Shown piece after piece: positions 12,445 to 64,000 of a stretch of 64,000 bases of DNA (positions are counted from its first letter, which is position 1; each line of letters starts with the position of its first letter). The position numbers and the translations under genes are program-made. Origin of the DNA: Hymenobacter oligotrophus (GTDB lineage Bacteria > Bacteroidota > Bacteroidia > Cytophagales > Hymenobacteraceae); assembly GCF_003574965.1 (NCBI RefSeq), contig NZ_CP032317.1:2108001-2172000 (forward strand). Reading direction: 5' to 3'. The notes under the pieces were generated by a model. That model was not told where the DNA came from, did no database searches, and saw only the letters and a program-made list of their open reading frames with translations.

Positions 12445-12449
12445 AAGTG

Positions 12450-13403
12450 CTAGGCGTTACGGAAACGGCGCATAAACCAATACAGCCCGTTTACGATGAA
12501 GAATTGGTAACTCTTCCACCGTGCCATCCTAGCTATCAATCCTTTCACTCCAATCCAGAAATTGCCTTGGTACAGGTGCAAAAAATCGTCCTTAGCCAGC
12601 AATGCTAGCAGGTCGTGGGTATTGGCAATACGGATATCCTTATTATTTGTCACAGCTGGCAGCGTATTTACTTTCAACCGCATCAAAATCCGGGCTTGTA
12701 GCATCCGATTGGACTCGTTGATCATGCTAATAGGGTGGGCTCGTACCAATGCAGCCACTTCATTGGAGTCATCGTAAGTGAACCGCCCTCCCTCAGCAGC
12801 GCAGCGAATCCAGTAATGCCAATCTTCGCAAGCTCTTAATTCCTCGTCAAAGTCACCTACACGCTTTATTAATTCCCTGCGTAACATAGGGGCATTCACC
12901 ACCATTATGTTCTCGCGAATCAGCTCCTTCAGCACCTCTACCCCTTTGCCAGAAACGCACGGCATCCAAGGTTGATTCTGCATGTCAACAGAGCAGCTGA
13001 AAACACCAAACTGACCATGTACGAAATAGCGCACCTTTCCGTACACGACATCCACGTCCGGGTGAGCCTCGAGGAAAGCTACATTCAACTCCAGCTTGCA
13101 CTTTGACAACAAATCGTCAGCATCTAATAGCTGCACATACTTGCCTTGTACCGCCCTCAGCCCCGTATTGCGGGCACTTGAAAGTCCCGCGTTGTCTTGA
13201 TAAATATACCGAACCCTGTTATCGGTTTTGCAAAGCGCGGCGCTCACTTCGCGGGTATTATCCTTCGATCCGTCGTCTACGATGATGCACTCCCAGTTGA
13301 CGTAACTCTGCTGTTGCAGGCTAGCCACCGTTTCAGGCAGAAAATGTGCGTAGTTGTAACACGGTACTATGACGGAAACCAGAGGCAGTGTGGATGTGGA
13401 CAT
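12450..13403 (-). CDS. Glycosyltransferase family 2
   Basis: 317 residues from ATG (MSTSTLPLVSVIVPCYNYA); a GTG three codons upstream is possible but less likely. GT-A motifs: VDDGSKDNT, the metal site LLDADDLLS, NAGLSSARNTGL, and the catalytic-side motif ACEDWHYWIRC. Five bases before the GT4 gene downstream and 42 bases after the ABC transporter stop, so it follows the exporter in the same transcript. Confidence 0.88.
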   Translation of the reverse strand: MSTSTLPLVSVIVPCYNYAHFLPETVASLQQQSYVNWECIIVDDGSKDNTREVSAALCKTDNRVRYIYQDNAGLSSARNTGLRAVQGKYVQLLDADDLLSKCKLELNVAFLEAHPDVDVVYGKVRYFVHGQFGVFSCSVDMQNQPWMPCVSGKGVEVLKELIRENIMVVNAPMLRRELIKRVGDFDEELRACEDWHYWIRCAAEGGRFTYDDSNEVAALVRAHPISMINESNRMLQARILMRLKVNTLPAVTNNKDIRIANTHDLLALLAKDDFLHLYQGNFWIGVKGLIARMARWKSYQFFIVNGLYWFMRRFRNA

Positions 13404-13445
13404 GCGAACCACAGTGTAAGCAGAAATGGCGGCAGCTTAGCGGGC

Positions 13446-15218
13446 CTAAACGTGTTTGGCAATCAGTTCCTCATACGAGTACACAGCCGCAATTTGGCCG
13501 TTCTTCAACTCGTAGATACGGTCACACTGACGCAGCGTTGTAATGCGGTGAGCAATGATCAGAATGGTTATATCCGTACCAGATAGCTTATTAATTGCCT
13601 CGTTTACTTCGCGCTCGGTTTGGTTATCTAGGGCACTGGTGGCTTCGTCCATTACAAGCACTTGGGTACGCTTATAAAGGGCACGGGCAATACCAATACG
13701 CTGCCGTTGGCCTCCGGAAAGCCGGGCGCCTCGCTCTCCAGAAACAGTGTCTACCCCGTTGGGCAGTGTGCGGACAAAATCAGCCAAAGAAGCTTGTTCC
13801 AAGGCATATTGCAGGCGTTGCTCGTCTGGCTGCTCCTCGCCCAAGGTTATGTTATCGCGAATAGAGGCTTCCATTAAGAAGGTATCCTGCTTTACATACC
13901 CCACTAGTTGGTGCCAAGCAGAGGTATATTCTGGGGTCAGAGTCACCCCGTCAACTTTAATTTGGCCCTGTTGCTGCTCATAAAAGCGCAGCAACAAGTT
14001 CATTAGGGTAGTCTTGCCTGATCCCGAACTGCCAATGAATCCGATCTTCTCGCCTTTGCGCACACTGAAGCTCACATCGTTCAGTACTGGATGGTCGCCG
14101 CCAGGAAAGGCAAAACTCACACGGTCGAAATCTATTTGCCGCTCGAAATTTAAATTCGGTTGTTGCTTCACGTGATGAGACTGCCATTCACGCTCTCGGA
14201 ACAATGCCAACGACTCAAACGTGTAAATGTGCTGCTTAATGGTAACCAGCGACGTCAAGATTCGATTGACAGAAGGCATGAGGCGGTATGCCGCTGCCGC
14301 AAATAAACCAACTATAGTCACCAAGCTAGTTGTGTCCTTGGCAAACAGCAACGAATACAGGAATATGGTGACTACAGCCAAAATCGCAACCATCTCAATG
14401 ATGCGCAAGGGCAGCAAATTGTAGAGATAGGACTTCGCTTCGAGCCCCTGCAGATAGCCTTGGTTTTCGTATACCCGATTGCGGAAACGCGACAATTTAT
14501 TGGCCAGCTTCAACTCCACAAAGCCTGCGAAGGTATCGATAACCATGCCATAGGCTTTGGGCCTGTTGGCATCAATTTGCTGTCCTACTTGCTGTGATCG
14601 GTTCTTCAGAGCTCTGTAGGTAAGCAACGTGGTGGGCACTAACGTGACTAGCAGAATGACAAACAGAGCAGGCTGGTACAGAAGTATACCCAGTACAACT
14701 ACAAAAACAATTATAATCTCAGATAGAAAAATAAATAACTGCCGAATTACTCCATTTAGATAAGAGTTAGGCATTACCAGGGCGTCATTTACCATGCGCG
14801 CCGTGCCCATTTCCTGAAATTTCCAGAAAGGAAGTCCCGTGTATTTCTGAAATTGATTATCTACGATTTTGAGAGCCACGTAGGCCGTGAACCGTACTTG
14901 TTTGTAGTTAATCCAGCTGGTAAAGACGTTTTTAACGAGAAAGAATACAAAAATGGCTATAATTAAAAAAATCAAAAACGACTTTTCTGATTCAAAATTC
15001 ATTTGATTGTAGAGCCACGCCGACCAGCGCGTTTTCTCTACTGAGCCCGGGGCCGAGGCCAACATAACCACCGGCACCAAGGAGGCAAGACCAAACACAT
15101 CCAACAAGGATGCGATGATCAGGAACAAGAACATGATGGCTGCCTGACGCTTGTCAGCAGGCGCCAGATAATACAACAGGCTCCGCAGAGCCTGTCCAAT
15201 TACATTTTCTTTGAACAT
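13446..15218 (-). CDS. ABC transporter, fused permease and ATPase (PglK/MsbA-like flippase)
   Basis: 590 residues: an N-terminal transmembrane domain with about six helices (residues 1-320), then an ATPase domain with Walker A GSSGSGKTT, signature LSGGQRQRIGIARAL, Walker B VLVMDEATSALD and the switch His in IIAHR. Half-size exporter, works as a dimer. No Wzx-type flippase is visible in the window, so flipping of the lipid-linked oligosaccharide, as done by PglK, is the likely job. It heads the run of transferase genes down to 5739, with a -7 promoter box at 15294-15301. Confidence 0.87.
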   Translation of the reverse strand: MFKENVIGQALRSLLYYLAPADKRQAAIMFLFLIIASLLDVFGLASLVPVVMLASAPGSVEKTRWSAWLYNQMNFESEKSFLIFLIIAIFVFFLVKNVFTSWINYKQVRFTAYVALKIVDNQFQKYTGLPFWKFQEMGTARMVNDALVMPNSYLNGVIRQLFIFLSEIIIVFVVVLGILLYQPALFVILLVTLVPTTLLTYRALKNRSQQVGQQIDANRPKAYGMVIDTFAGFVELKLANKLSRFRNRVYENQGYLQGLEAKSYLYNLLPLRIIEMVAILAVVTIFLYSLLFAKDTTSLVTIVGLFAAAAYRLMPSVNRILTSLVTIKQHIYTFESLALFREREWQSHHVKQQPNLNFERQIDFDRVSFAFPGGDHPVLNDVSFSVRKGEKIGFIGSSGSGKTTLMNLLLRFYEQQQGQIKVDGVTLTPEYTSAWHQLVGYVKQDTFLMEASIRDNITLGEEQPDEQRLQYALEQASLADFVRTLPNGVDTVSGERGARLSGGQRQRIGIARALYKRTQVLVMDEATSALDNQTEREVNEAINKLSGTDITILIIAHRITTLRQCDRIYELKNGQIAAVYSYEELIAKHV

Positions 15219-15293
15219 GTATTCTTAGTGTCCACTATTGCTAACACTCTGTGCGAATACCCCTTGCATTGAGGCAAATAGCATTCGAAGCCA

Positions 15294-15301
15294 CAAAGGT
15301 A
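15294..15301 (-). promoter_or_regulatory. Bacteroidota-type -7 box (TACCTTTG) upstream of the ABC exporter
   Basis: Reads TACCTTTG on the minus strand in the 113-base gap between the AT-rich GT2 gene and the ABC exporter, giving a leader of about 70 bases. The -33 element is poor. It would let the exporter/transferase genes be expressed apart from the AT-rich block. Confidence 0.45.
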
Positions 15302-15331
15302 GCGAACCCTAGTCAAACCGTAGTGCGTTGT

Positions 15332-16267
15332 TTAGCCGCGAGCCCTGCGCAGCCGATCGAACACAGAATAAGGCAACCCAACAGCAGACATACAGTACAA
15401 CAGGCCTAGCGACGGTACCTTATAATACTTCCAAGCCTCCTTTAAGTATTTCGTAGCAGATTTGGCTCCTTTCCTATATAATAGCTCGGCTTGTTCGCGT
15501 ATGTGCCTATAGATAATCGCGTCTCCTTCCGGACTAAAGCCAAGATGTTTCTTTAACAACAAAATTGTAGATTCATAAAATTTATGTGAACGAGTGTTCC
15601 ACATTGATGTGCTCACTATTCTGTATTTAGAAGGGATATAATTAGAGAAAAACACTTTATAATTGCGCGATAATCGGAGCCACATATCCCAGTCCTCATA
15701 GAACAAGTTTTCATCAAAACCTCCTAATTTCTTAAGCGCCTCGGTTCTAACCATGGTGCTTATTCCAGGTATGAAGTTTTTATTTAACAAAGAAATAAAA
15801 ACATCGCCATAAGTTTTAACAAAATCAGGATCACGACTATTCATCAATGTATCAGATTTTAGCTGACTATCTTCGTCAATTATATAAACGTCTCCATACA
15901 ACAAAGCATATTCGTCGCTCAAATTTTCAAATTCTGCAACTTGCTCCTCTATCTTACGCGGCATAAATACGTCATCAGAAGCAATTATTGACATATATTT
16001 TCCGCGCGAGTTTAATAACATGTCATTAGCAACTCTACACACACCCTCGTTTACGTTGTGTTTAATAAATTTAAATTTTATACTATTATTCAATAACCAT
16101 GCATCAATTATCTCAACTGAATTGTCTTTCGAACAGTCATCGACAACAATTAATTCGATATTATTATACGTTTGAGCTTTAATACTTTCAAGCGCCTCCA
16201 CTACAAACCTAGCATTGTTGTATGAGGACATGCAAACACTTACTAATGGCGTATCAGAGTTTATCAT
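15332..16267 (-). CDS. Glycosyltransferase family 2, AT-rich gene
   Basis: 311 residues. GT-A domain: VSVCMSSYNNARF, VDDCSKDNS, ASDDVFMPRK as the metal site, and FYEDWDMWLRLSRNY. The codons are clearly richer in A and T than those of the exporter gene next door (many AAA, ATA, TTA), like the four genes upstream of it, which suggests acquisition with that block. Nine bases separate it from the acyltransferase gene. Confidence 0.87.
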   Translation of the reverse strand: MINSDTPLVSVCMSSYNNARFVVEALESIKAQTYNNIELIVVDDCSKDNSVEIIDAWLLNNSIKFKFIKHNVNEGVCRVANDMLLNSRGKYMSIIASDDVFMPRKIEEQVAEFENLSDEYALLYGDVYIIDEDSQLKSDTLMNSRDPDFVKTYGDVFISLLNKNFIPGISTMVRTEALKKLGGFDENLFYEDWDMWLRLSRNYKVFFSNYIPSKYRIVSTSMWNTRSHKFYESTILLLKKHLGFSPEGDAIIYRHIREQAELLYRKGAKSATKYLKEAWKYYKVPSLGLLYCMSAVGLPYSVFDRLRRARG

Positions 16268-16276
16268 GACTGTTTT

Positions 16277-16768
16277 TTAAAGACTCACAATTTCAGGGTC
16301 CAACTTCTTGATTAGCCTTGCAGGATTTCCTCCCACAACAGAAAAGTCATCAAAGCAATTGTTTACAAAGCTATTGGCAGCAACAACACAAAATTTACCT
16401 AAAATTACCCCTGGCATAATCACTGCATTTGCTCCAATCCATGAATGATCACCAATCTTCACGTTTTTTTTAACAATAGGAAAATATTTCTGCATCAATG
16501 GGCTTGCATTAGGACCTGAGCTACTCATAATATTTACATGTTGCGCTATACTTACAAAATTTCCTATCTCAATTGCGGCCGCATAACCTTGAATAAATGA
16601 ATGAGGCCCTATGTAAGTACTTTCCCCTACATGCAATATAAATTCAGCCGAACCAAATACACTACAACCTTTTGCTATTTTAACATTATTGCCAATTTTA
16701 ATATTATTAATTGAACTCGAAGGATCAACAACAACACCAGCCCCCAAATTAATATTTTCGGTCAGCAT
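16277..16768 (-). CDS. Hexapeptide-repeat acyltransferase (LbH family)
   Basis: 163 residues of left-handed beta-helix repeats: IKIGNNVKIAKGC, IEIGNFVSIAQHV, VKIGDHSWIGANAVIMPGVILGKF, ending in GGNPARLIKK, the usual tail of the serine acetyltransferase/maltose acetyltransferase class. The frame could begin 20 codons earlier, but that would run through the upstream aminotransferase stop; the ATG at 16768 follows that stop with one base between. Likely an O- or N-acetyltransferase acting on a sugar or nucleotide-sugar, possibly in the FdtC role of acetylating an amino-sugar. The acceptor is not shown by sequence. Confidence 0.85.
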   Translation of the reverse strand: MLTENINLGAGVVVDPSSSINNIKIGNNVKIAKGCSVFGSAEFILHVGESTYIGPHSFIQGYAAAIEIGNFVSIAQHVNIMSSSGPNASPLMQKYFPIVKKNVKIGDHSWIGANAVIMPGVILGKFCVVAANSFVNNCFDDFSVVGGNPARLIKKLDPEIVSL

Positions 16769-16769
16769 T

Positions 16770-17723
16770 TTATTTGCAATAAATAAATTGACGTATGCAC
16801 TCGTAGAAGTAGGCGAAATCCACCTCATTCAATTTTTGATGAAGAGGTATAAAAAAAGCTTTCTCACCATAAAAAACACTACACTGAATGCCCTTTTTCC
16901 AAAGATAGGACTTCAGCGCTTGTAAATCTACCTCGCATTCTACCTTGAACATGTACACTCCAGGAACTTCTCCTGATTTCAATTCGAATCTAGGCGACAA
17001 AGCAAGCGGCGCTAGTTTATCAGACAACAACTTATAGTTATATAAACGCTTTTCTGATATAGAGTTGATTTCTTTAAGATAAAACGACATTACTTTCTGA
17101 ATATATAATTTACTATCTTCAGTAATTAAATTATAATTAAGCTCATATTTATTATTAGCAACAACAATACCACCGAATTGAATAGAAAAAAACTTTGCAA
17201 AGCTATAAATAACAAAATCACCCACCTGACTAATTTCACCGAAGCTATTAGTAGAATTAAACGCATAGCAGCAATCCTCTATTATTGGAACTCCATATTT
17301 CTTCAGACGAGCAAGATTTGGAAATGGAATGCCAAATTCATGGTTTACAAATATAGCTTTCGTGTTAACCTCAATTTTCATTGACCACTGACACACCTTC
17401 TCTATCTCCCTAGTAACACATCCACTTATATAAGTATTACCGGTACTTGTGAGGATAGTAATACAATCGTCAGGTTTTAATTTAAGCAATTTAAGTACCT
17501 CTGATATACCATGTGAGCCACTAGCGGTGTATTGCCATGTTTTGCCCGCAAAACGTTGATCAAAGTAATCATCAATGTCAGTGGCGTGCTTTAAGCTATG
17601 ATGCACAGCTAAATCATAAGCAGTGAAAGAGTTTATCCTATAATCAGGCAGCAGATCATCGTGGCTATTGAATACAAAGCCATTTGACACTGATGGGTAC
17701 ACTGTATTACAATTGTTTTTCAT
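16770..17723 (-). CDS. DegT-family PLP aminotransferase, short and divergent
   Basis: 317 residues, shorter than the usual 370-400. Family features remain: IIEDCCYAF with the PLP-contacting Asp, and YSFAKFFSIQFGG where Lys is the Schiff-base candidate followed by the Gly pair. The ATG at 17723 is preferred over a TTG ten codons upstream; it gives a 17-base overlap with the upstream gene. The C-terminal half is poorly conserved. It may make an amino-sugar or be specialised for another keto-sugar. AT-rich like its neighbours. Confidence 0.75.
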   Translation of the reverse strand: MKNNCNTVYPSVSNGFVFNSHDDLLPDYRINSFTAYDLAVHHSLKHATDIDDYFDQRFAGKTWQYTASGSHGISEVLKLLKLKPDDCITILTSTGNTYISGCVTREIEKVCQWSMKIEVNTKAIFVNHEFGIPFPNLARLKKYGVPIIEDCCYAFNSTNSFGEISQVGDFVIYSFAKFFSIQFGGIVVANNKYELNYNLITEDSKLYIQKVMSFYLKEINSISEKRLYNYKLLSDKLAPLALSPRFELKSGEVPGVYMFKVECEVDLQALKSYLWKKGIQCSVFYGEKAFFIPLHQKLNEVDFAYFYECIRQFIYCK

Positions 17724-18684
17724 AGATGTGCATGAGTTCAATAACTGACCCAAAATCTTCCTTTTGCGAGAGCAAGCCGTAATTTATTTCGCTGTTTACT
17801 GTAGAGATACCAAATGAGAATTTACGAATACCTTTTTTCTGAGCATACATCGCAGCAGTAACAACCATCGCATCGATTGCACGTATTTCCCTGCCTTCTT
17901 CATTTGCATGCGTATACTGACTATGTACAAAGCCCTTGGATTCATCCATGAATAACAAGGTACCTCCAACTATCTTGTCTCCTACGGACGCAGTAAAAAG
18001 AATAATGTTATTAGGATTAGACTGGTGTAGCAATAACAGTTCTTCTGCAGTATGAACTGGTCTTACCCCGTGCGTCTTCATGAGGCTACTGGCCATGATA
18101 GCCCAGAAATCATGGAAATTAACACTTTGTTCAATGCGTAAACCGCTCGCGTCAGCCTTTTTTAGATTTTTCTTTCTAGCCCTAGTGAGGCTCAAGGCTT
18201 TAGTTAAGTCAATTACGGAATTAATCTCCTGTGAAATAATTGAAAACCCATATTTGTAAAAATAAAACTCATGCGCTTCCGAGTATTCAGAAGAAAAAAC
18301 GCGCGAAACTGGTTTTACGATCAATTTTGTAAAACCGTCGTGTTTAAGCTGCATTAGTATTAAATTATAAATCTTTTCAAACTTATAATATTTTAAACCC
18401 GATTTGTGGACCAACCCACCATACGTTAGCCCTGGATGAGCTACAACAACGCTCTTGTCGGTGGTCGTTCTTGCTGATCCTGCCACAAATAAAGCCACAA
18501 GGGAACCTTCATCCCAAATCAAGTATGAATGGTCTTCAAATCGGTCTTTATGGTAGTCCATATATGACCGTTTAAATAAAAAAGTCCCATTAGCGCTTTT
18601 ACCCACAAATTCATTCCATACGTCTATGTCCTGAGGGGTGTACTTGCGAATGGAGTAAATAGTGGTTTCAACGACTTCTTTCAT
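17707..18684 (-). CDS. GNAT/FemAB-like N-acyltransferase
   Basis: 325 residues. The C-terminal half (about 165-320) matches the GNAT fold seen in FemAB-like proteins: RARKKNLKKA as a basic segment that recurs in this group, then VGDKIVGGTLLFMDESKGFVHSQYTHAN, and IRKFSFGIST. The N-terminal half looks like a second degenerate GNAT unit. Such proteins occur in polysaccharide loci and are thought to acylate sugars, but the substrate is not established. Its start overlaps the ketoisomerase stop in an ATGA arrangement (18681-18684). Confidence 0.7.
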   Translation of the reverse strand: MKEVVETTIYSIRKYTPQDIDVWNEFVGKSANGTFLFKRSYMDYHKDRFEDHSYLIWDEGSLVALFVAGSARTTTDKSVVVAHPGLTYGGLVHKSGLKYYKFEKIYNLILMQLKHDGFTKLIVKPVSRVFSSEYSEAHEFYFYKYGFSIISQEINSVIDLTKALSLTRARKKNLKKADASGLRIEQSVNFHDFWAIMASSLMKTHGVRPVHTAEELLLLHQSNPNNIILFTASVGDKIVGGTLLFMDESKGFVHSQYTHANEEGREIRAIDAMVVTAAMYAQKKGIRKFSFGISTVNSEINYGLLSQKEDFGSVIELMHIYEKQL

Positions 18685-19091
18685 ACTAAATGATTTATTT
18701 TTAATTGCTGAAACGACTCATAGCTTCGAATGTAGTCATCCTCAGTATATTCGGCTGATGCCAAACATAGCAATACAGCATTGTGCGAGAACTTTATGGT
18801 ACGCCAAAATAGTTTTGGAATATACAGCCCTACATTCGGCTCATCAAGTGTAAATTCGTGAACAGTATTATCTAGGCCTTCTAGTGTGAATACAATTTTA
18901 CCGCTGGTAGCAAAAATAATTTGCTCCAAATCGTGATGAGCATGATGCCCCCGTACTACAGAGTCAGGCGTAAAATAAGTCCAATAAACCCGCTTGATCT
19001 CGAAGGGCAACTCGCTATTCTGCACCACTGAGATGTATCCCAGCATTGAAGAGCCAATCTTGGAAAATTCAATCAGAAAAGGGTCGGCCAT
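18681..19091 (-). CDS. FdtA/QdtA-like dTDP-sugar 3,4-ketoisomerase (first copy)
   Basis: 136 residues, a single cupin barrel of the WxcM-like family. RGHHAHHDLEQII carries the His pair used by FdtA/QdtA to isomerise dTDP-4-keto-6-deoxyglucose to a 3-keto sugar; LYIPKLFWRTIKF and EDDYIRSYESF are also family marks. A second copy lies at 20989-21399, clearly homologous but diverged and GC-richer. This one heads the AT-rich block and is coupled to the acyltransferase gene. No exact -7 box is seen upstream. Confidence 0.85.
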   Translation of the reverse strand: MADPFLIEFSKIGSSMLGYISVVQNSELPFEIKRVYWTYFTPDSVVRGHHAHHDLEQIIFATSGKIVFTLEGLDNTVHEFTLDEPNVGLYIPKLFWRTIKFSHNAVLLCLASAEYTEDDYIRSYESFQQLKINHLV

Positions 19092-19627
19092 ACAGCAGTA
19101 TTGTCTTAAGAAGTAGATGAGCGTGATGGCTACTTAATTTCAGCTACCAAATGCTTGAGCTTACGTGATTATTTTGCTTGGTTTAAATCAAGCCTGAAGT
19201 CACATGAAGTTGATAGGCTCGTGCTCGCGTAAAAATACTAAAACCTATTATAGTACTGCTGGCAGAAATCACGACCTGCTCCATCTGCACACCGCAACAT
19301 AGGCTTTCCTGGGGATGAACAGTATTCTTACCTTGAGAAGCACACAGTACCATATTTTAGGAGTTGCGTCAACAAATTGCTCAAGGCAAACACGGGTTTG
19401 TGGTCATTTTTTGCTCTGCAAAGAAATTCGTTTAAGCATCTAATCGAAGGCCTAAGCCTCTTCCGCTTCACCGGCCAGCTGTGGCGTGGCGTAATGATTT
19501 TAGGGCAAGTACCTAAGCGGCGACATAGGCACGCCTACCGTGCGTAATAGAGCTTAGCCACGTTCCGCTCGAAAAGTTGTCAGCTAAGGCACTCACAGGT
19601 TTGGGCAGTTAGCCAGCCTATCGAGAG
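19092..19627. other. Long gap without an intact gene
   Basis: 536 bases. No complete gene is visible. A plus-strand frame without ATG, open from about 19251 to the TAA at 19545-19547, encodes about 98 codons with protein-like content (for example FRFTGQLWRGVMILG) but no family I recognise; it may be a relic of an insertion sequence or a displaced gene. The gap marks the change from AT-rich to GC-richer DNA. No clear inverted repeats at its edges were found by eye. Confidence 0.4.
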
Positions 19628-20725
19628 TTAGGCCCGCCGGATGGCTTGCGCCACCTCGGCTACTTGATCTTCCGTCATGCCTGGCCACAAAGGCAGACTC
19701 AAGGAGGTTCGGGCTAGTTTTTCAGCTATGGGCAACGAACCGGCTCCGAACTGCATCGGAGCATATGCCTGCTGCAGATGCGGAGGTACTGGGTAATGAA
19801 TCATGGTGCCGATGCCTTGTTCTGTCAGGCGCCGCTGCAAAGCATCGCGTTCGTGGGTGCTCACTACGTACAGGTGATACACGTGGGTAGCCCCCGGAGC
19901 GGTTTGGGGTAACACCAAGCCTGCAATGCCGGCTAGGTGTTGGTTGTACCAAGCAGCTACCTGTTGGCGCTGGCCCGTCCAAACCGCCAAGGATTGCAAT
20001 TTTACTCGCAGCACAGCAGCCTGTAGCTCGTCGAGGCGCGAGTTATAGCCCACGACTTCGTTGTAATACTTTTGTTGCGAACCGTAGTTGCGCAGCACGC
20101 GCACACGCTGGTCAAGTGCCGCGTCGTCAGTCGTTATAGCGCCGGCATCCCCAAGGGCGCCGAGATTTTTGCCGGGGTAAAAACTGGTGGCATTGATGTG
20201 GCCGAACGAACCCGTGAGTTGCCCGCCGAAGCTGGCGCCCTGGGCCTGCGCATTGTCTTCGACTACGGAGAGACCATACTGCAGTGCCACCGTCATAATT
20301 TCCTTCATGCGGCAGGCTTGGCCATAGAGGTGTACCGGCATAATGGCTCGCGTGCGGGAAGTGATGGCCGCTGCTAACTGCGCCGGGTCGAGGTTGCTCG
20401 TGTCGGGGTCGGGCTCCACAGGCACGGGGGTAGCACCTACCTGCGTAACAGCCAGCCAAGTGGCAATGTAAGTATTGGATGGTACGATTACCTCGTCACC
20501 CTCACCCACACCCAGAGCCCGTAAGGCCAGCACCAGCGCATCTAGTCCGTTGGCCACGCCTACAGCATGCTGCGTGCCGGAAAAGGCTGCGTACTCGGCC
20601 TCAAAGTGCTTTACTTCTTCACCCAATACATACCATTGCGAATCGTAAACACGGGCCATGGCGGCCAGTACCTGTTCGCGAATTGGCTCGTGCTGTGCTT
20701 GAAATGAGAGAAAAGGAATTGCCAT
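19628..20725 (-). CDS. fdtB: dTDP-3-amino-3,6-dideoxy-sugar transaminase (FdtB/QdtB type)
   Basis: 365 residues from the ATG giving MAIPFLSFQAQHEPI, the standard start of FdtB/QdtB/EryC1 enzymes; longer in-frame starts up to 20824 add unconserved sequence. Motifs: VEDNAQAQGA with the PLP-contacting Asp and SFYPGKNLGALGDAG with the Schiff-base Lys. FdtB aminates dTDP-3-keto-6-deoxy-galactose (QdtB the gluco epimer) made by the ketoisomerase, and an FdtA-type gene is next upstream, 263 bases away. Has its own -7 box. Confidence 0.85.
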   Translation of the reverse strand: MAIPFLSFQAQHEPIREQVLAAMARVYDSQWYVLGEEVKHFEAEYAAFSGTQHAVGVANGLDALVLALRALGVGEGDEVIVPSNTYIATWLAVTQVGATPVPVEPDPDTSNLDPAQLAAAITSRTRAIMPVHLYGQACRMKEIMTVALQYGLSVVEDNAQAQGASFGGQLTGSFGHINATSFYPGKNLGALGDAGAITTDDAALDQRVRVLRNYGSQQKYYNEVVGYNSRLDELQAAVLRVKLQSLAVWTGQRQQVAAWYNQHLAGIAGLVLPQTAPGATHVYHLYVVSTHERDALQRRLTEQGIGTMIHYPVPPHLQQAYAPMQFGAGSLPIAEKLARTSLSLPLWPGMTEDQVAEVAQAIRRA

Positions 20726-56426: not shown

Positions 56427-56558
56427 CCCAAGCGCTAAAAATATTCATACAATCTTCTTTTAGATATAAGCCAGCCGTGTACTTTTAGGCTACCAAAACT
56501 GCGTATCCCCTGCATTTAGCCGCGGCCACCCAGCTTTTAGGTGGACTTATCGCGCTAT

Positions 56559-58601
56559 ATGCTTTTGTTTTTACGGTACCTAGGCCTGGCGGCATTGCTG
56601 GGCGTTATTACTCACCCGGCAGCGGCTCAGGACGAGCCCGTTAAGTTCGGCAAGATTGAGCCCGACGTTTTTAAGCCCAATCAGTACAAAGGCGCCGACG
56701 CTGCGCCGGCCGTTGTGCTCTGCGATTTTGGCACCTCGCGCATTGTAGGTGCCCAAGACGGGTTTAAGGTGGTGTTCGAGCGGGTTACGCGCGTGCTGGT
56801 ACTCAACAAAGCCGGCTACGAGCAAGCCAACGTGGCCGTGCCGCTGTATCACCGCGAGGGCAAAAAGGAAGAGCTGCTAAACTTGCGTGGCTTTACCTAC
56901 AACCTCGTGGGCGACAAAATCGAGAAGCAGAAGCTCGACAGCAAGGCCACCTTCGAAGAAAAGCTCGACGACCGCCACACCCTACACAAGTTTTCGCTGC
57001 CGAGCGTGCGCGAGGGCAGCATCATCGAGTACGCCTACACCATCAAGTCCGACTTCCTGTTCAACCTGCAGGACTGGCAGTTTCAGCGCGACGTACCGGT
57101 GGCTTGGAGCGAGTACCGCACCGTTATTCCGGGGTACTTTCAGTACAAGGAAATTCCGCACGGCTACCTGCCCTACACCGCGCAGGGCCGCGATATTGTG
57201 GGCTACTCCACAGGCTACACCCAATCTACCTCCGACCATTATGGCACGCACAGCGCCGCCACGGGCTCGGGCCAGCAAATGCTGCTGTCGGGCAAGGCCG
57301 TGCGCAGCGTGTGGGTGATGAAAAACGTGCCGGCGTTCCGCGAGGAACCCTTCATGACCACTCGCAACGACTACCTGGCCGCCATCGATTTTGAGCTCGA
57401 CAAGGTGGTGTTCGATCCGCAACGGCCGCAGCAAGTAAGCTCTACTTGGGAGAAGATTGCCTCGGAATTGCTGCAGGAAGAAGACTTTGGCGTGCGCCTG
57501 CAGGGCCGCTCGCCGCTCCACAGCGCCGCCGAAGCCCTAAAAGCCCAGTACCCCGAGCCGAACGCGCGTGCTGCGGCGGTTGTGGCCTTGGTGCAAAACA
57601 AGGTGCGCTACAACGGCCAGGAGCGCCTGTACGCCACCAACCCGCTCCGGCGGGTAGCGGAGCAAGGCCAGGGCTCTGCGGCCGAAATGAACCTGCTGCT
57701 GGTGCAAACCTTGCGCGACGCCGGCCTGGAGGCCCAGCCCGTGCTGCTGAGCACGCGCAGCCACGGCTTGGTGCAAACCGAAGTGCCGCTGCTTAGCCAG
57801 TTCAACTACGTGGTGGCCGCCGTAACGGCGCCCAACCAACCCGATTTGCTGCTCGATGCCACCGAGCCCCTGGTAGCGGCTGGCACCTTGCCGGAGCGGT
57901 GCCTCAACGGCCAAGGCCGCCTTATTACCGCCTCCGGCGGCAAATGGGTGTCGTTGGCGCCCAAGCTGCGCCACGTGCAGCTTACCACCGCTCGCCTTGC
58001 CCTCGATGAGCAGGGCGCCCTGAAAGGTACGCTGCGCGAAGAGTACAGCGGCTACGCCGGCCTGGCCCAGCGCCACGCAGCGGCTGCCAGCGGCGCGCCG
58101 GCTTACTTAAAAGCCTTTGCCCAACAACACGCCGAGTGGCAACTAACCGATGCCAAAGTCCTGAACCTGGACAAGCCCGATCAGTCGCTGCTGCTCGAAA
58201 CCGGCCTGGCGGTGCCCAGTTCGGCGGGCGGCAATGAGCAGCGGTTGTACGTGCCGGTAATGCAGCTTTTTACCAATGCCAAAAACCCCTTCGAGCACGC
58301 CGAGCGCGCGTACCCCGTGGATTTTGGCACGCTGCAGGAGCTTGTTACCACCGTGCAGCTGGCCTTGCCGGCCAATTTGGCCGTGGAGGAGTTGCCCAAA
58401 CCCCTACAGCTAGAGCTGCCCAATGGCGTTGGGCGCTACAGCTACCAGGTAAGCCAAGAGGGCAACACCCTACACCTTACCAGCCGCATGCAGCTGCGCA
58501 AAACGCAGTATCTGCCCCACGAGTACGCCGCCCTGCGCGAGCTGTTTACCCGCTCGCTGGCCAAAAACGCCGAGCCGCTCGTGTTTCGCCGCACCAACTA
58601 G
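56559..58601 (+). CDS. DUF3857 protein, transglutaminase fold without catalytic residues (first)
   Basis: 680 residues from the ATG at 56559 (a GTG six codons before is possible). Signal peptide ends near PAAAQ. The N-terminal half is DUF3857 (FERVTRVLVLNKAGYE, SVREGSIIEYAYT); the C-terminal half is a transglutaminase-like fold. Aligned with the third gene, the catalytic Cys position is Ala374 (GQGSAAEMN) and the His position is Tyr417 (FNYVVAA). So it is probably a pseudoenzyme that binds or scaffolds. Predicted periplasmic. 90 bases before an equal-length paralogue. Confidence 0.88.
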   Translation: MLLFLRYLGLAALLGVITHPAAAQDEPVKFGKIEPDVFKPNQYKGADAAPAVVLCDFGTSRIVGAQDGFKVVFERVTRVLVLNKAGYEQANVAVPLYHREGKKEELLNLRGFTYNLVGDKIEKQKLDSKATFEEKLDDRHTLHKFSLPSVREGSIIEYAYTIKSDFLFNLQDWQFQRDVPVAWSEYRTVIPGYFQYKEIPHGYLPYTAQGRDIVGYSTGYTQSTSDHYGTHSAATGSGQQMLLSGKAVRSVWVMKNVPAFREEPFMTTRNDYLAAIDFELDKVVFDPQRPQQVSSTWEKIASELLQEEDFGVRLQGRSPLHSAAEALKAQYPEPNARAAAVVALVQNKVRYNGQERLYATNPLRRVAEQGQGSAAEMNLLLVQTLRDAGLEAQPVLLSTRSHGLVQTEVPLLSQFNYVVAAVTAPNQPDLLLDATEPLVAAGTLPERCLNGQGRLITASGGKWVSLAPKLRHVQLTTARLALDEQGALKGTLREEYSGYAGLAQRHAAAASGAPAYLKAFAQQHAEWQLTDAKVLNLDKPDQSLLLETGLAVPSSAGGNEQRLYVPVMQLFTNAKNPFEHAERAYPVDFGTLQELVTTVQLALPANLAVEELPKPLQLELPNGVGRYSYQVSQEGNTLHLTSRMQLRKTQYLPHEYAALRELFTRSLAKNAEPLVFRRTN

Positions 58602-58691
58602 CCCCCTGCCCGCGGGCCGTGCCCCAATCACCTAGGGCATCGGCTAGCTCGGCGGCCGTGCTAAGCACATACTTTCTTTAACCCATTATTT

Positions 58692-60734
58692 ATGAAGCAC
58701 TGTTTACCCTTGTTGCTGACGCTGGCTGGCACCCTTGGCAGCGCCGCTTTCATCCCGGCCCTAGGTCAGGCCGACCCTATCAAATTCGGCAAGATCGAGG
58801 CGAAAGAGTTTGACCCCGCTGCCTTTAAAGCCGACAGCGCCGCCAATGCCGTATTGCTCTGCGACTTCGGCCGCACGCGCTTCAACGTGGGCCCCAAAGG
58901 CAACTTTCAGTATGTATTTGAGCGCACTACCCGCATCAAGATCCTGAAAAAAGGCGGCTACGAGTGGGCCGACGTGCAAGTGCCGCTCTACCACAAAGGC
59001 GGCGACGAGGAAAAGCTGAGCGGCGTGCACGGCTACACCTACAACATGGGCGCCAACGGCCAGATTGAGAAAGTGAAGCTGGAAACCGGCAACGCTTTCA
59101 CCGAAAAGGCCTCCGCCAACGTTACGCTGCGCAAGTTTACCATGCCCGGCGTGCGCGAGGGCTCGGTTATCGAGTACACGTACACGCTTACTTCTGACTT
59201 CCTGTTTAACTTTCAGGACTGGCAATTTCAGCACAGCATTCCGGTGCGCTGGAGCGAGTACCGCGCCGCCATTCCGGAGTACTTCGACTACAAGCAGCTG
59301 TGGCAGGGCTACGAGCCGCTGGCCGTGCAGGAGCGCACCGAAGGCAACGGGCAGTACACCGTGCGTTGGTCGGCCGAAATCAACACCTACGGCCGCACCT
59401 CGGGAGGCAGCGCCACCGTTACACCTAGGGTAATGCACCACCGCTGGGCCATGCAAAACGTGCCGGCCCTGCGCGAGGAACCGTACATGACCACTACCCG
59501 CGACTACGTATCGCGCTTGGATTTTGAGCTGGCCGGCGTGCGCTGGCCCGACGAGCCCTACCGCGACATGAGCAGCTCGTGGCCCAAAATGCAGCAAGAG
59601 CTGCTCGAAAGCGAAAACTTTGGCATGCAGCTGCGCCGCGGTGGCTTCCTGAAAACGGAAATCGACGCCATCGTGCAGAAGTACCCGAACGCGGTGGAGC
59701 GCGCGGCGGCCGTGCACGACTTGGTGCGCCGCAACGTAAAGGCCAGCGGCACGGGCCTGTACGCCACGGGCTCTATCCGGAAAACCTGGGAGCAGCACCG
59801 CGGCTCGGCAGCCGATGCCAACCTGCTGCTGATTACGCTGCTGCGCGACGCCGGCCTGAAAGCCAACCCCGTGATTTTGAGCACGCGCGAGCACGGCTAC
59901 GTCAACACCTCGTTTCCGCTGCTGTCGCGCTTCAACTACGTGGTGGCGCACGTGCAGCTGCCCGATAGCCAGCAGGTGCTGGCCGATGCCACCGAGGAGC
60001 TAGCCCCCTTTGGGATGCTGCCGGCCTCGTGCCTTAACGGCCAGGGCCGCCTGATTACCAGCGCCAAAGAAGGTGCCTGGGTACCGCTGCAGTCGAAGTT
60101 CCGGTTTGTGCACTTCCGCTCGGCCGAGCTTACGCTCGATGAGCGCGGCAGCCTAGCGGGCAAAGTGCGCGACGAAGGCGCCGGCTACCTGGCCCTGGTG
60201 CAGCGCAACTCCCTGCGCGAGCAAGGCGAAAAGAAATACGTGGAGAGCCTGCTGAAAAACAACGGCGGCTGGAAGATCGACAAGTTTGCGTTCCAGAACG
60301 TGGATGCCCTGGCCAAGCCCCTGTCGCTGAACCTGGACGTGCGCGTGCCCGGCGAATCGGAGCAACCCCTAGGTACCATTTACCTGAACGTGCTGCAAAC
60401 CCTCAATCAGGCCAGCAACCCCTTTCTGCTCACCGAGCGCCGCTTCCCCGTTGATTTCGGCACGCTGCTGGAAGAAACCAACATGGTAACCCTCACCCTC
60501 CCCGACAACTACACCGTGGAGGAGATGCCCGCCAGCACCGCCATCGAGTTGCCCGAGGGCGGGGGACGGTTCTTGTTCAGCATTACGCCCCTGGGCAACA
60601 AGCTGCAGATTACCAGCCGCCTGACCCTGAGCCGTGCTTTGTACTTGAGCGAGGAATACCCTTCGTTGCGGGAGTTTTACACGCGCATGCTGGCCAAGCA
60701 AGCCGAAAAAATCGTGCTGAAGCGCAAGTCATGA
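58692..60734 (+). CDS. DUF3857 protein, transglutaminase fold without catalytic residues (second)
   Basis: 680 residues, exactly the length of the previous protein. Signal peptide to about residue 26 (IPALGQA). DUF3857 half with FERTTRIKILKKGGYE and GVREGSVIEYTYT, then the transglutaminase-like half. The Cys position is Ala373 (RGSAADAN) and the His position Tyr416 (FNYVVAH), the same double loss as in the first copy. Both keep the nearby Cys in CLNGQGRLI. The stop overlaps the start of the third gene by four bases, so these are translated together. Confidence 0.88.
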   Translation: MKHCLPLLLTLAGTLGSAAFIPALGQADPIKFGKIEAKEFDPAAFKADSAANAVLLCDFGRTRFNVGPKGNFQYVFERTTRIKILKKGGYEWADVQVPLYHKGGDEEKLSGVHGYTYNMGANGQIEKVKLETGNAFTEKASANVTLRKFTMPGVREGSVIEYTYTLTSDFLFNFQDWQFQHSIPVRWSEYRAAIPEYFDYKQLWQGYEPLAVQERTEGNGQYTVRWSAEINTYGRTSGGSATVTPRVMHHRWAMQNVPALREEPYMTTTRDYVSRLDFELAGVRWPDEPYRDMSSSWPKMQQELLESENFGMQLRRGGFLKTEIDAIVQKYPNAVERAAAVHDLVRRNVKASGTGLYATGSIRKTWEQHRGSAADANLLLITLLRDAGLKANPVILSTREHGYVNTSFPLLSRFNYVVAHVQLPDSQQVLADATEELAPFGMLPASCLNGQGRLITSAKEGAWVPLQSKFRFVHFRSAELTLDERGSLAGKVRDEGAGYLALVQRNSLREQGEKKYVESLLKNNGGWKIDKFAFQNVDALAKPLSLNLDVRVPGESEQPLGTIYLNVLQTLNQASNPFLLTERRFPVDFGTLLEETNMVTLTLPDNYTVEEMPASTAIELPEGGGRFLFSITPLGNKLQITSRLTLSRALYLSEEYPSLREFYTRMLAKQAEKIVLKRKS

Positions 60735-62680
60735 GCCCAGGTTGGAAATCCACTCTTAAGCAGTTGGCACTGGCCGGCGCCTTGGGCTTGGCGCCGCTGC
60801 TGGTCCAGGCCGGCCAGCCCCCGCAATGGCCCGTCAGCAGCATTGCAGCCCCGCTACGCCAGGGTGCGCATGCCGTAATTCGTCAGCAAGACGACGTGCT
60901 TGCGGTGAAGGCGGCTGGGCGCATGGTGCACACCGTGCGCCGCGTGGTAACCGTGCTCGATGAGCAGGGCGACAACTGGGGCGTGGCCGTGGTACCCTAC
61001 GATAAGCTAACGCAAGTAAGCTACCTGCGCGGCACCGTGTACGATGCCGAAGGCCAGGCGGTGCGCACCCTGCGCCCCGCCGACATCAAAGACTACAGCA
61101 ACGTAAGCGGCGCTAGCCTTTTCGAGGACAACCGCGTGCGCGTGGCCGACCTGCGCCAGCCCCGCTACCCCTACACCGCCGATTTTACCTACGAATACAC
61201 CTCCGATAATACGCTGAATTTCCCGACCTGGAGCCCCCAAGACGAGGAGCACGTAAGCCTGGAGCACGCCACCCTGCGCGTAACTACTCCGACCGAGCTG
61301 CCGCTGCGCTACCTCGAGGAGCGGCTGCCGCAGGGCGGTGCCGTCACCAAAAGTCAGCAGGGCAGCCAGCTGGTGTATGCCTGGCAGCTTACCAACCTGC
61401 CGCCGCTCGAGCGCGAGGCCTACAGCCCGCCCGTGGCCGAGCAGGTGCCTACCGTGTACACCGCCCCTACCGCTTTTGAGGTGCAGGGCCACCGCGGCGA
61501 CATGACCACCTGGCAAGGCCTGGGTAAGTGGGAGTACGACCTGAACCAGGACCGCGCCGAGCTGAGCCCCGAGGTAAAAGCCAAAGTAACGGCTTTGCTG
61601 AAGGACGTGACCGACCCGCGGCAGCGCGTGCGCAAGGTGTACGAGTACTTGCAAAACTCCACGCGCTACGTATCGGTGCAGCTGGGCATTGGGGGCTGGC
61701 AGGCGTTTCCGGCTAGCACGGTGGCCAGCACCGGCTACGGCGACTGCAAGGCTCTGTCGAACTACTGCATGGCCTTGCTGCGCGCCGCTGGCATCGAGAG
61801 TTACTGCGCCATTATTGGGGCGGGCGAGCAACGGGCGGCCATTCGCACGTCGTTTCCGAGCAACCAGTTCAACCACATGATTTTGTGCGTGCCCATGCCC
61901 AAGGATACCGTGTGGCTGGAGTGCACCTCGCAAACCGAAGCGTTTGGGTACCTAGGCTCGTTTACGGGCGGCCGCCACGCCCTGCTGCTCACACCGCAAG
62001 GCGGCAAGCTGGTACGCACGCCGGCCTACGCCGCCTCCGCCAACGGCCAGTTTCGCAACGCGCAAGTGGCAATCGACGACAAAGGGTTTGGCCGAGCCAC
62101 GGTGCGCACCGTATCGACGGGGCGGCAGCAAGACGAGCTGGCGCAGATGCTAAGCGCCCTGCCGCCCGACGAGCAACGCAAGCAGGCGTATGCCCGGCTG
62201 GGGTTGGCTGCCGTTACCATCGAGCAAAGCAACTGGCAGCGCAACCACCTAGGCGCATTGCCCGCGGTTACGGAGCGCCTCACGCTGGCTTTGCCCAGCT
62301 ACGCCTCGCTTACCGGACGGCGCCTGTTTCTGGTGCCTAACTTGCTCAACCGCTTGCCGCCACCGGCCTCGGCAGTAGGGGCACGCCAAACGCCCTTGGT
62401 GTTGCACCTGCCCTTTACCGATGCCGATACCGTGCGCTTTACGGTGCCGGCCGGCTACAAGCCCGAGTCGGTGCCGGCGCCGGTGCAGCTGCGCACCGCG
62501 TTTGGCAGCTACGACGCGCAGGTGCAGGTGCTTCCCGATGGCAGCATTCAGTACATACGCCGGCTGCAAATGCCCAATGGCCGCTTCGAGGCCGCGCAGT
62601 ACGAAGCATACGAAGCCTTCCGCCAGCGCATCAGCAAAGCCGACCGCATGCAGCTGGTGTTGGTGCGGCCCGAATCCTGA
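60731..62680 (+). CDS. DUF3857 protein with intact transglutaminase-like domain
   Basis: 649 residues. Signal peptide to about 28. DUF3857 half with TVRRVVTVLDEQG, then STGYGDCKALSNY with Cys339, FNHMIL with His382 and WLECTSQTE with Glu397, the expected catalytic Cys-His-acid set, followed by a beta-rich C-terminal domain. Could be a periplasmic amidase/protease or cross-linking enzyme; the substrate is unknown. Third and last of the DUF3857 genes, coupled to the second by a four-base overlap, followed by a terminator. Confidence 0.9.
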   Translation: MSPGWKSTLKQLALAGALGLAPLLVQAGQPPQWPVSSIAAPLRQGAHAVIRQQDDVLAVKAAGRMVHTVRRVVTVLDEQGDNWGVAVVPYDKLTQVSYLRGTVYDAEGQAVRTLRPADIKDYSNVSGASLFEDNRVRVADLRQPRYPYTADFTYEYTSDNTLNFPTWSPQDEEHVSLEHATLRVTTPTELPLRYLEERLPQGGAVTKSQQGSQLVYAWQLTNLPPLEREAYSPPVAEQVPTVYTAPTAFEVQGHRGDMTTWQGLGKWEYDLNQDRAELSPEVKAKVTALLKDVTDPRQRVRKVYEYLQNSTRYVSVQLGIGGWQAFPASTVASTGYGDCKALSNYCMALLRAAGIESYCAIIGAGEQRAAIRTSFPSNQFNHMILCVPMPKDTVWLECTSQTEAFGYLGSFTGGRHALLLTPQGGKLVRTPAYAASANGQFRNAQVAIDDKGFGRATVRTVSTGRQQDELAQMLSALPPDEQRKQAYARLGLAAVTIEQSNWQRNHLGALPAVTERLTLALPSYASLTGRRLFLVPNLLNRLPPPASAVGARQTPLVLHLPFTDADTVRFTVPAGYKPESVPAPVQLRTAFGSYDAQVQVLPDGSIQYIRRLQMPNGRFEAAQYEAYEAFRQRISKADRMQLVLVRPES

Positions 62681-62705: not shown

Positions 62706-62741
62706 CAACAGCCACTCCGCTTAGGGTGGCTGTTGTTTTTT
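62706..62741 (+). terminator. Rho-independent terminator after the DUF3857 genes
   Basis: Twelve-pair stem CAACAGCCACTC/GGGTGGCTGTTG with one G-T pair, then TTTTTT. Confidence 0.85.
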
Positions 62742-62950: not shown

Positions 62951-64000
62951 ATGCGCATATTATTTACCCTGCCCGGTACAGCGTTGCGCGGCGCTGTGCT
63001 GCGTGGCCTGCTTGCCGCGGGCTTAGGCTTGCCGTTTTCGGCCAGCGCCCAACGGGTGCTTTGGGCCGATGCTGATAGCAAGCCCCTGCCTGCCGCTGCC
63101 CGCCGCACTGCCCAAGCCCTAGGTAGGTACCGGATGGTAACGGTGCAACTGGCCAACCTGCGCGCCGCACTGGCCCCGGCGGCCAACAGCAACAATGCGC
63201 GTAGCGCTGGCCCGGTGGTGTCGTTGCCGTTGCCCGATGGCAGCTCGGGCCGGTTCCGGGTTACCGAAACGCAGGTGATGGCGCCCGCACTGGCAGCCCG
63301 CTACCCCGCCATTAAAACGTACTCCGCCCAGGGCATCGACGACCCCACGGCCACCGCCTACCTCGATGTATCGAAGGCCGGGCTGCACGCCATGATTTTG
63401 TCGGCGGGCAATACGGTGTACGTGGACCCTGCCGCCGGCGGGCCGGAACACTTGGTGTTCTACAAGCGCGACATCAACGACGCGGCGTTGGCCCGGCGTG
63501 TGTGCCTTACCCAAACAACCTCGGTGCTTAGCCGGCGGCTTGGTCCGTTGCAAGGCGGCACCGCGGCCCGCAGCAACGGTACCCAGCTGCGCACCTACCG
63601 CCTGGCCATGGCCTGCACGGGCGAGTACGCAGCCAAAAAAGGCGGCACCACCGAGGGCGCGCTGGCCGGCATTGTGGCCTCGGTAAACCGCGTAAGCGGC
63701 GTGTACGAAAAGGAGCTGTCGATTCGGCTGCAGCTGATTGGCAACACCGACCAGCTGATTTTTCTCGACCCCGCCACCGACCCGTACACCAACGAAAGCA
63801 CCGAAGCCACCCTCAACACCAATCAGCAAGTAACCGACCAGCGCATTGGGCCGGCCAATTACGACATCGGCCACGTGTTTACGACCGATGGCGGCGGGCT
63901 GGCGGGCCTGGGCGTGGTGTGCATTGGCAACAACAAGGCACGCGCCACCACCGGCCTGCCCAACCCCATCGGCGACGCATTCGACATCGACTTTGTGGCG
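62951..64000 (+). CDS. Secreted reprolysin-like zinc metalloprotease, 3' end outside window
   Basis: 350 codons present, open to the window edge. Signal peptide MRILFTLPGTALRG up to SASAQ. A propeptide-like region, then YRLAMACTGEYAAKKGGT, SVNRVSGVYEKELSIRL, TDPYTN, and YDIGHVFTTDGGGLAGLGVVC, the start of the M12-type metalloprotease domain common in Bacteroidota. The zinc-binding HEXXHXXGXXH would be the next few residues after FDIDFVA, just beyond the window. A type IX tail is likely further on but not visible. The gene is separated from the DUF3857 set by a terminator. Confidence 0.85.
   Translation, partial: MRILFTLPGTALRGAVLRGLLAAGLGLPFSASAQRVLWADADSKPLPAAARRTAQALGRYRMVTVQLANLRAALAPAANSNNARSAGPVVSLPLPDGSSGRFRVTETQVMAPALAARYPAIKTYSAQGIDDPTATAYLDVSKAGLHAMILSAGNTVYVDPAAGGPEHLVFYKRDINDAALARRVCLTQTTSVLSRRLGPLQGGTAARSNGTQLRTYRLAMACTGEYAAKKGGTTEGALAGIVASVNRVSGVYEKELSIRLQLIGNTDQLIFLDPATDPYTNESTEATLNTNQQVTDQRIGPANYDIGHVFTTDGGGLAGLGVVCIGNNKARATTGLPNPIGDAFDIDFVA

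Follow-up and report, generated by a model that had tools for sequence, protein, structure and literature searches.

The window analysed here is a stretch of 64,000 nucleotides from Hymenobacter oligotrophus (assembly GCF_003574965.1, contig NZ_CP032317.1, positions 2,108,001 to 2,172,000). It carries on its forward strand three consecutive genes for DUF3857 proteins with a transglutaminase-like core. The first two, P0001 and P0002, have lost two of the three catalytic residues that the third, P0003, keeps. The loss is conserved in relatives, and across the class Bacteroidia most of the intact genes that we found have an inactive gene beside them. It is likely from these sequences that the inactive copies are partners of the live enzyme. 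As best explanation we propose, with moderate confidence and by analogy to the M16B heterodimers, that they serve a periplasmic cysteine enzyme as its non-catalytic subunits.

Catalytic loss and its conservation

P0001 (56559-58601) and P0002 (58692-60734) each have 680 residues and P0003 (60731-62680) has 649. Translation reproduced the reading frames of the original prediction and its equal length for the first two proteins. The Pfam models DUF3857, Transglut_core and DUF3858 match all three proteins, some of them under the curated cut-off. For DUF3857 (PF12969, cut-off 24.6 bits) P0002 (34.4) and P0003 (92.0) pass; P0001 misses the cut-off as a protein (23.1) and passes it in a six-frame search of the genome (25.7). 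For Transglut_core (PF01841, cut-off 23 bits) P0003 passes with 29.3, and P0001 (21.8) and P0002 (20.8) are both slightly short. The third model matches the C-terminal, DUF3858-like domain of P0003 with 16.8 bits, which is below the cut-off of 27. The six-frame search revealed zero further DUF3857 matches in the genome. Since these are the sole three matches and since their residue pattern is conserved in relatives, the pattern in the trio is beyond chance.

The alignment places C339 of P0003 opposite A374 of P0001 (gcg codon at 57678-57680, forward strand, that is 56559 + 3*373) and A373 of P0002, and H382 opposite Y417 and Y416, respectively. This agrees with the original prediction of Ala for the catalytic Cys and Tyr for the His in the first two proteins, and of an intact Cys339, His382 and Glu397 in the third. 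What had not been mentioned is that E397 aligns with Asp433 and Asp432, and that the third catalytic position is thus acidic in all three proteins. Passages of PMC4866520 give Cys-His-Asp/Glu as the usual triad. It is complete in P0003, and the acid alone is kept in P0001 and P0002. The Cys-His-Glu of P0003 is compatible with catalysis. An active arylamine N-acetyltransferase with Cys-His-Glu is reportedly the subject, going by the title, of a paper listed among the references of PMC4866520.

Searching named genomes at the protein level gave 21 related loci, and others came from DUF3857 searches of 58 relatives and 119 class members and from later searches. The fetched loci are largely places with neighbouring matches, and the residue counts given here therefore describe residues and not the frequency of pairing. 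An early set was reduced from 288 to 252 rows by leaving out matches of less than 400 residues and identical ones. From the later set we dropped one match of less than 300 residues (259 to 258 rows); loci no longer than 7 kb, slices of the window itself and four duplicates of the named genomes were also excluded. The 258 rows were sorted by four profiles (type 1 is the kind present in the trio), and we counted the 21 named Hymenobacter and Solirubrum loci to the window's family. The nearest named relative of P0002 is from Solirubrum puertoriconensis (90% identical), and Hymenobacter species come next.

In the window's family, all 84 type-1 inactive copies are without the Cys (A in 45, S in 29 and V in 10), and all 84 have Tyr at the His site and keep the Asp. 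Random changes at these positions, which would have spoken against the original prediction, were looked for in the orthologues: within the family the Tyr is fixed, while the Cys site varies between three residues. Over all families the Cys is missing in 124 of 125 type-1 inactive copies and the Asp kept in 124, with A (48), S (44), V (17) or one of ten other residues (16 rows) at the Cys site. The His site has Tyr in 99 and His in 9 of the 125; outside the window's family it is variable, with H, T, K, R, N and S among its residues. The original interpretation is supported in part: the double loss is conserved, but because the Cys site varies within the family and the His site outside it, Ala and Tyr as such are not the conserved feature, which is rather the loss of the Cys together with the retention of the Asp.

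In the window's family 49 of 50 type-1 active rows have Cys-His-Glu, and the remaining one is a fragment without the site. Over all families 76 of 78 have Cys and His, 74 have Glu and 2 have Asp; two of the 78 are the fragment L066 and a divergent protein of G162 with E-Q-S, misfiled by the profiles. Type-2 active rows have Cys-His-Asp in 28 of 28.

The lone type-1 inactive copy with a Cys is in L137 (Cys-Phe-Asp). The nine copies that keep the His belong to other families (f22, f10) and have Ser-His-Asp (L085, two in L112, L113, L135, L136 and L140) or Gly-His-Asp (L134 and L141). As a guess, these nine may be intermediates. The inactive-type proteins that keep the His or the Cys, never both, are without an active neighbour, L137 included and L085 and L113 excepted.

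All three genes of the window are under purifying selection. Compared with two sister genomes, the ratio of nonsynonymous to synonymous substitution rates (dN/dS) is 0.22 and 0.25 for P0001, and 0.09 and 0.13 for both P0002 and P0003; the dN of P0001 is about twice that of P0002. The 84 inactive copies of the window's family have a median pairwise identity of 41% (minimum 26%), and 28 of the 640 scored columns are invariant in them. Ten of these 28 lie within 377-433 in P0002 numbering, namely N377, L384, P393, S397, T398, R399, G402, Y416, D432 and A433. These ten sit in the 57 residues after the former Cys, the site of which is itself only 54% conserved; thus the surroundings of the site have been kept without the nucleophile. 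In active relatives largely different residues are conserved in this region. Selection on the three genes (dN/dS 0.09-0.25), invariant residues specific to the inactive class and an inactive gene beside most of the intact ones found all uphold the selected role that the double loss had suggested, and the sequences give good support to such a role.

In a confident model of P0002 (mean predicted local distance difference test score, pLDDT, 89.1), A373 is the first residue of a helix, which is the expected position of the catalytic Cys in a transglutaminase-like fold. Judging from this fold, the invariant residues would be close to each other around the old site. The P0003 model is weaker (mean pLDDT 80.2). 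In both models the DUF3857 region (about residues 45-290) resembles the N-terminal domain of M1 aminopeptidases, and in that of P0002 it resembles also a subunit of the oligosaccharyltransferase complex.

Among 89 rows, P0001 and P0002 group most closely with one another (46% identical, 99% support in the Shimodaira-Hasegawa-like approximate likelihood ratio test, SH-aLRT). Since, in addition, the Cys is absent in all but one of the 125 copies, the double loss is most simply read as one event that both proteins inherited. The original prediction, which spoke of a conserved double loss in two paralogues, is corrected in this point; two independent losses are not needed. On the alignments, the loss predates the radiation of the window's family. 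In a quick tree of the 89 rows the 52 inactive ones were all separated from the active ones (98% SH-aLRT), yet an alternative tree in which type 1 active and inactive proteins form one clade was equally good (log-likelihood 5.7 higher, p 0.587). A single old loss before the subfamilies split was for this reason not adopted, and one or several losses across the subfamilies both fit the trees.

The distances among the active proteins follow those among their nearest inactive neighbours (r 0.88-0.90, 14 to 24 loci of the window's family). When flanking genes served as controls, partial r was 0.68-0.87 in five control sets, each with a Mantel p of 0.0005, which is the floor of 2000 permutations. 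Such coupled evolution fits partners, and also a gene block that is inherited together.

Pairing of active and inactive genes

We searched one set of 247 Bacteroidia genomes with two profiles, A2 (type-1 active) and A3 (type-1 inactive). For each genome the best four or five candidates were scored, with the weakest matches left off, and all counts are among the matches listed. A neighbour of a type-1 gene is one on the same strand within 1 kb. Clean score gaps set the limits for type 1 (461 versus 243 bits for active and 292 versus 145 bits for inactive genes). The gap was not clean for type 2, in which the lowest match counted (G069, 454 bits) belongs to a type-3 pair whose partner lies next to it.

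In type 1, an inactive neighbour was present beside 25 of the 26 active genes found, and an inactive gene was present in all 24 genomes that contain an active one. Of the 43 inactive genes, 32 share a block with an active gene. In 19 of the 25 neighbour pairs the inactive gene leads, in 6 the active one does, and in 21 the two matches have their ends no more than 60 bases apart. In type 2, the inactive gene adjoins 43 of 50 active genes, in all 43 cases with the active gene first. A catalytic and a non-catalytic paralogue side by side, which is the hallmark taken from M16B, are thus found at 25 of 26 type-1 and 43 of 50 type-2 active genes. Genomes with a type-2 active gene contain an inactive one in 49 of 50 cases, the lone exception being G069; the 6 other active genes without a neighbour (7 in total) have the inactive gene on another contig. 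Two genomes have a type-2 inactive gene only. In one of these (G260) a truncated active match adjoins the inactive gene at the end of the contig, and in the other (G288) the inactive gene is at a contig end. Contig ends were checked for part of the unpaired loci.

A third type consists of an active enzyme and a partner of 709-778 residues, and was present in 9 of 12 loci fetched (L175-L182 and L185). The central (transglutaminase) region of this partner no longer matches the family model. An alignment of the partners nevertheless matched the type-2 inactive profile (HHalign probability 100, E 7e-46, 594 columns). The loci without a partner are L174, for which a weak partner match was seen in another search, L183, and L184, which is near a contig end. 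Furthermore, a plasmid of Persicobacter psychrovividus, from another family of the order, has an active gene followed by an inactive one with Asn at the inactive His site. This was read from the DNA; the record is without annotation there, and we did not retain it as an annotated named example. On the sequences, the pattern is wider than one trio and extends over the class, although some loci clearly depart from it.

DUF3857 enzymes of two types stand without a neighbouring match, and they have the Cys motif in 14 of 14 proteins fused to tetratricopeptide repeats (TPR) and in 9 of 9 of another single-gene type. We considered that active and inactive halves might be fused in one chain in 14 DUF3857 candidates of about 1260 residues. 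Each of them has a single C-terminal match with the Cys motif, and the N-terminal halves of all 14, used as an alignment, gave no match to the family profiles, so that no fusion was found. These proteins (L154-L167, 1246-1316 residues) carry the DUF3857/transglutaminase unit at the end of the chain, and in the three that were scanned (L154, L158 and L160) it is preceded by TPR repeats. The long TPR-type architecture occurs in the window's family too (G021 and G025).

Possible roles of the inactive proteins

Bacterial M16B enzymes are described in passages of PMC12731061 and PMC11266112 as a catalytic protein and an inactive homologue from a two-gene operon, with the heterodimer as the active form. 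The same passages state that the inactive subunit of the mitochondrial processing peptidase (MPP) contributes one half of the cavity and is indispensable. Pairs of this kind (TTHA1264/TTHA1265, SPH2681/SPH2682 and MPP alpha/beta) resemble the DUF3857 proteins in combining a catalytic with a homologous non-catalytic subunit. They differ in having another fold and zinc chemistry, and their complex is proven, whereas a DUF3857 complex is deduced from the genes. By this analogy, the block in the window would encode a papain-fold (transglutaminase-like) cysteine enzyme that is presumably exported to the periplasm. P0003, with its Cys-His-Glu, would be the catalytic subunit, and P0001 and P0002 would bind to it as non-catalytic paralogous subunits. 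The pocket of P0002 (Tyr416, Asp432, S397-T398-R399-x-x-G402 and Asn377) might hold or orient part of the substrate. It might also be possible that P0001 and P0002 complete the cavity of the enzyme, as inactive M16B subunits do.

Several observations weigh against such a complex. The inactive genes outside any block with an active gene (11 of 43 in type 1), the two of 26 genomes with a type-1 inactive gene in which no active one was found (G139 and G189) and the type-2 rows that are not adjacent (10 of 53 inactive and 7 of 50 active, some but not all at contig ends) mean that an inactive copy need not sit with an active gene. One type-1 active gene (G058:C11) is in turn without an inactive neighbour. 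In the distance test, in which the control sets may include paralogues, the major facilitator superfamily (MFS) transporter control reaches a partial r of 0.51-0.73 with the two proteins, close below the 0.68-0.87 of the pair itself; joint inheritance of the block may therefore explain part of the coupling. With the tree alternatives (p 0.587), the pairing may be older or younger than the split of types 1 and 2. Finally, the ten-residue blocks with C339, H382 and E397 in the P0003 model have a mean pLDDT of 77, 83 and 77.

The inactive genes that stand apart and the two inactive-only genomes would suit free-standing periplasmic binding proteins or chaperones, which bind the same kind of ligand without a complex and are placed next to the enzyme for co-expression only. 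The residues conserved around the old site without a nucleophile would suit them as well. We regard this as rather unlikely, since most type-1 inactive genes are in a block with an active gene, the matches of most neighbours end within 60 bases and the evolutionary distances are coupled. The shared fold and the retained pocket could also belong to inhibitors or decoys acting to curb the enzyme or to tie up its substrate, and an inactive gene does come first in the window, as in most type-1 neighbour pairs. However, the order differs by lineage, with the active gene first in 6 of 25 type-1 and in all 43 type-2 pairs, and direct evidence of inhibition is absent; an inhibitory role appears improbable to us.

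The altered site might also catalyse a different chemistry, through Ser, Tyr or the conserved S-T-R/Asp group; this would account for the Asp in nearly all type-1 inactive copies, for the 44 of 125 that have Ser in place of the Cys and for the seven copies with Ser-His-Asp. Since no nucleophile is conserved at a Cys site that holds A, S, V and ten other residues, we consider this very improbable. We give a negligible chance to P0001 and P0002 being functionless genes in decay. Two catalytic residues are gone and P0001 has the higher dN, but the open frames, the low dN/dS, the residues that are invariant over 84 copies and the conservation across families contradict decay as far as sequence can.

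The best structural match of the P0002 and P0003 models (VIA-align) was PDB 3KD4, the protein BDI_1141 of Parabacteroides distasonis, which carries the deposited name 'putative protease'. The alignment covers nearly the whole of both models (P0003: Z 26.4, 489 residues, root-mean-square deviation (rmsd) 5.2; P0002: Z 18.5, 482 residues, rmsd 5.8), whereas the identity is 13-14%. 3KD4 is also the sole PDB sequence matched by the profiles A6 and A3 up to E 0.1. Its G-T-P-L-E stands opposite G-D-C-K-D of active type-2 enzymes and G-N-S-A-E of type-1 inactive proteins, in weak alignments that do not cover the His and the Asp. On this basis 3KD4 appears to be without the catalytic Cys.

The subunit reading may be extended to the class. 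The DUF3857 cysteine enzymes of Bacteroidia would then be a widespread heteromeric periplasmic class of at least three subfamilies, in which the catalytic subunit needs a dead paralogue with a re-specialised pocket, and 3KD4 would be such a dead subunit and not a protease. We put this forward tentatively, as a possibility that falls somewhat short of an even chance. If it is true, it would not be possible to understand or assay a large uncharacterised group of secreted Bacteroidia enzymes protein by protein, as the catalytic subunit would require its dead partner. It would explain why the one solved relative found is named a protease and yet apparently has no nucleophile. In addition, it would provide a simple genome-wide pattern for the search for substrates and for testing why pseudoenzymes persist.

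Other known proteins are less close. The P0002 model matches transglutaminase-fold chains with Z 8-10. The core fold of P0003 is like that of the LapG periplasmic cysteine proteases (4fgp, Z 10.7, 135 residues, rmsd 3.4); here the core domain alone aligns, and the LapG passages considered do not mention an inactive paralogous partner. In erythrocyte protein 4.2 (EPB42) the Cys is replaced by Ala. The fold of EPB42 (7uzs) was among the structural matches of both models, and this protein is listed as a catalytically inactive Transglut_core member in excerpts of PMC10318531; it differs in being eukaryotic and in its role in the membrane skeleton. A bacterial transglutaminase-fold domain that is called inactive, is predicted to face the periplasm and is in an operon with a peptidase is described in sections of PMC12239564. 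There the domain is membrane-anchored with another architecture, and the peptidase is aspartic and not a paralogue. A description of an active/inactive DUF3857 pair was not found in the literature searched, a scope outside which most subscription papers lie, and DUF3857 was named once, in passing. A paper on tandem genes in Flavobacterium collinsii mentioned neither a transglutaminase nor a DUF.

Gene layout and neighbourhood

The overlap of four bases between the last two genes was predicted correctly: in the ATGA at 60731-60734 (forward strand) the stop codon of P0002 overlaps the ATG with which P0003 starts at 60731. Translational coupling of the two genes is possible with this arrangement. 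P0001 has an alternative GTG start at 56541, which would give 686 residues, and P0001 and P0002 have equal lengths only if the ATG of P0001 is used. The N-termini of all three proteins are hydrophobic when read by eye, which would suit the signal peptides of the original prediction.

Downstream of P0003, a hairpin of 12 pairs followed by TTTTTT lies at 62706-62735 on the forward strand (-20.5 kcal/mol, z -4.96), resembles an intrinsic terminator and stands between P0003 and a downstream protease gene. It has the longest stem and the sole run of six T among the terminator-like sites scanned; the scan gave 7 sites overall, versus a mean of 7.8 in shuffled sequences. The gene block probably ends at this hairpin. 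The protease gene is reprolysin-like (a metalloprotease); its start is in the window (62951-64000) and it runs off the end. A homologue that was scanned (L054) has a secretion-system C-terminal sorting domain.

Recurrent neighbours of the 74 type-1 active loci were an ATP-binding cassette (ABC) transporter (27), the reprolysin-like protease (24), an MFS transporter (23) and a helix-hairpin-helix protein (22). Because all of these, except one ABC locus, are in the window's family, we read the recurrence as synteny and not as a hint at function. Elsewhere in the window, positions 12001-20000 have a G+C content of 0.47 and 0.40, versus 0.51-0.66 in the other 4-kb steps, a drop as in a foreign island.

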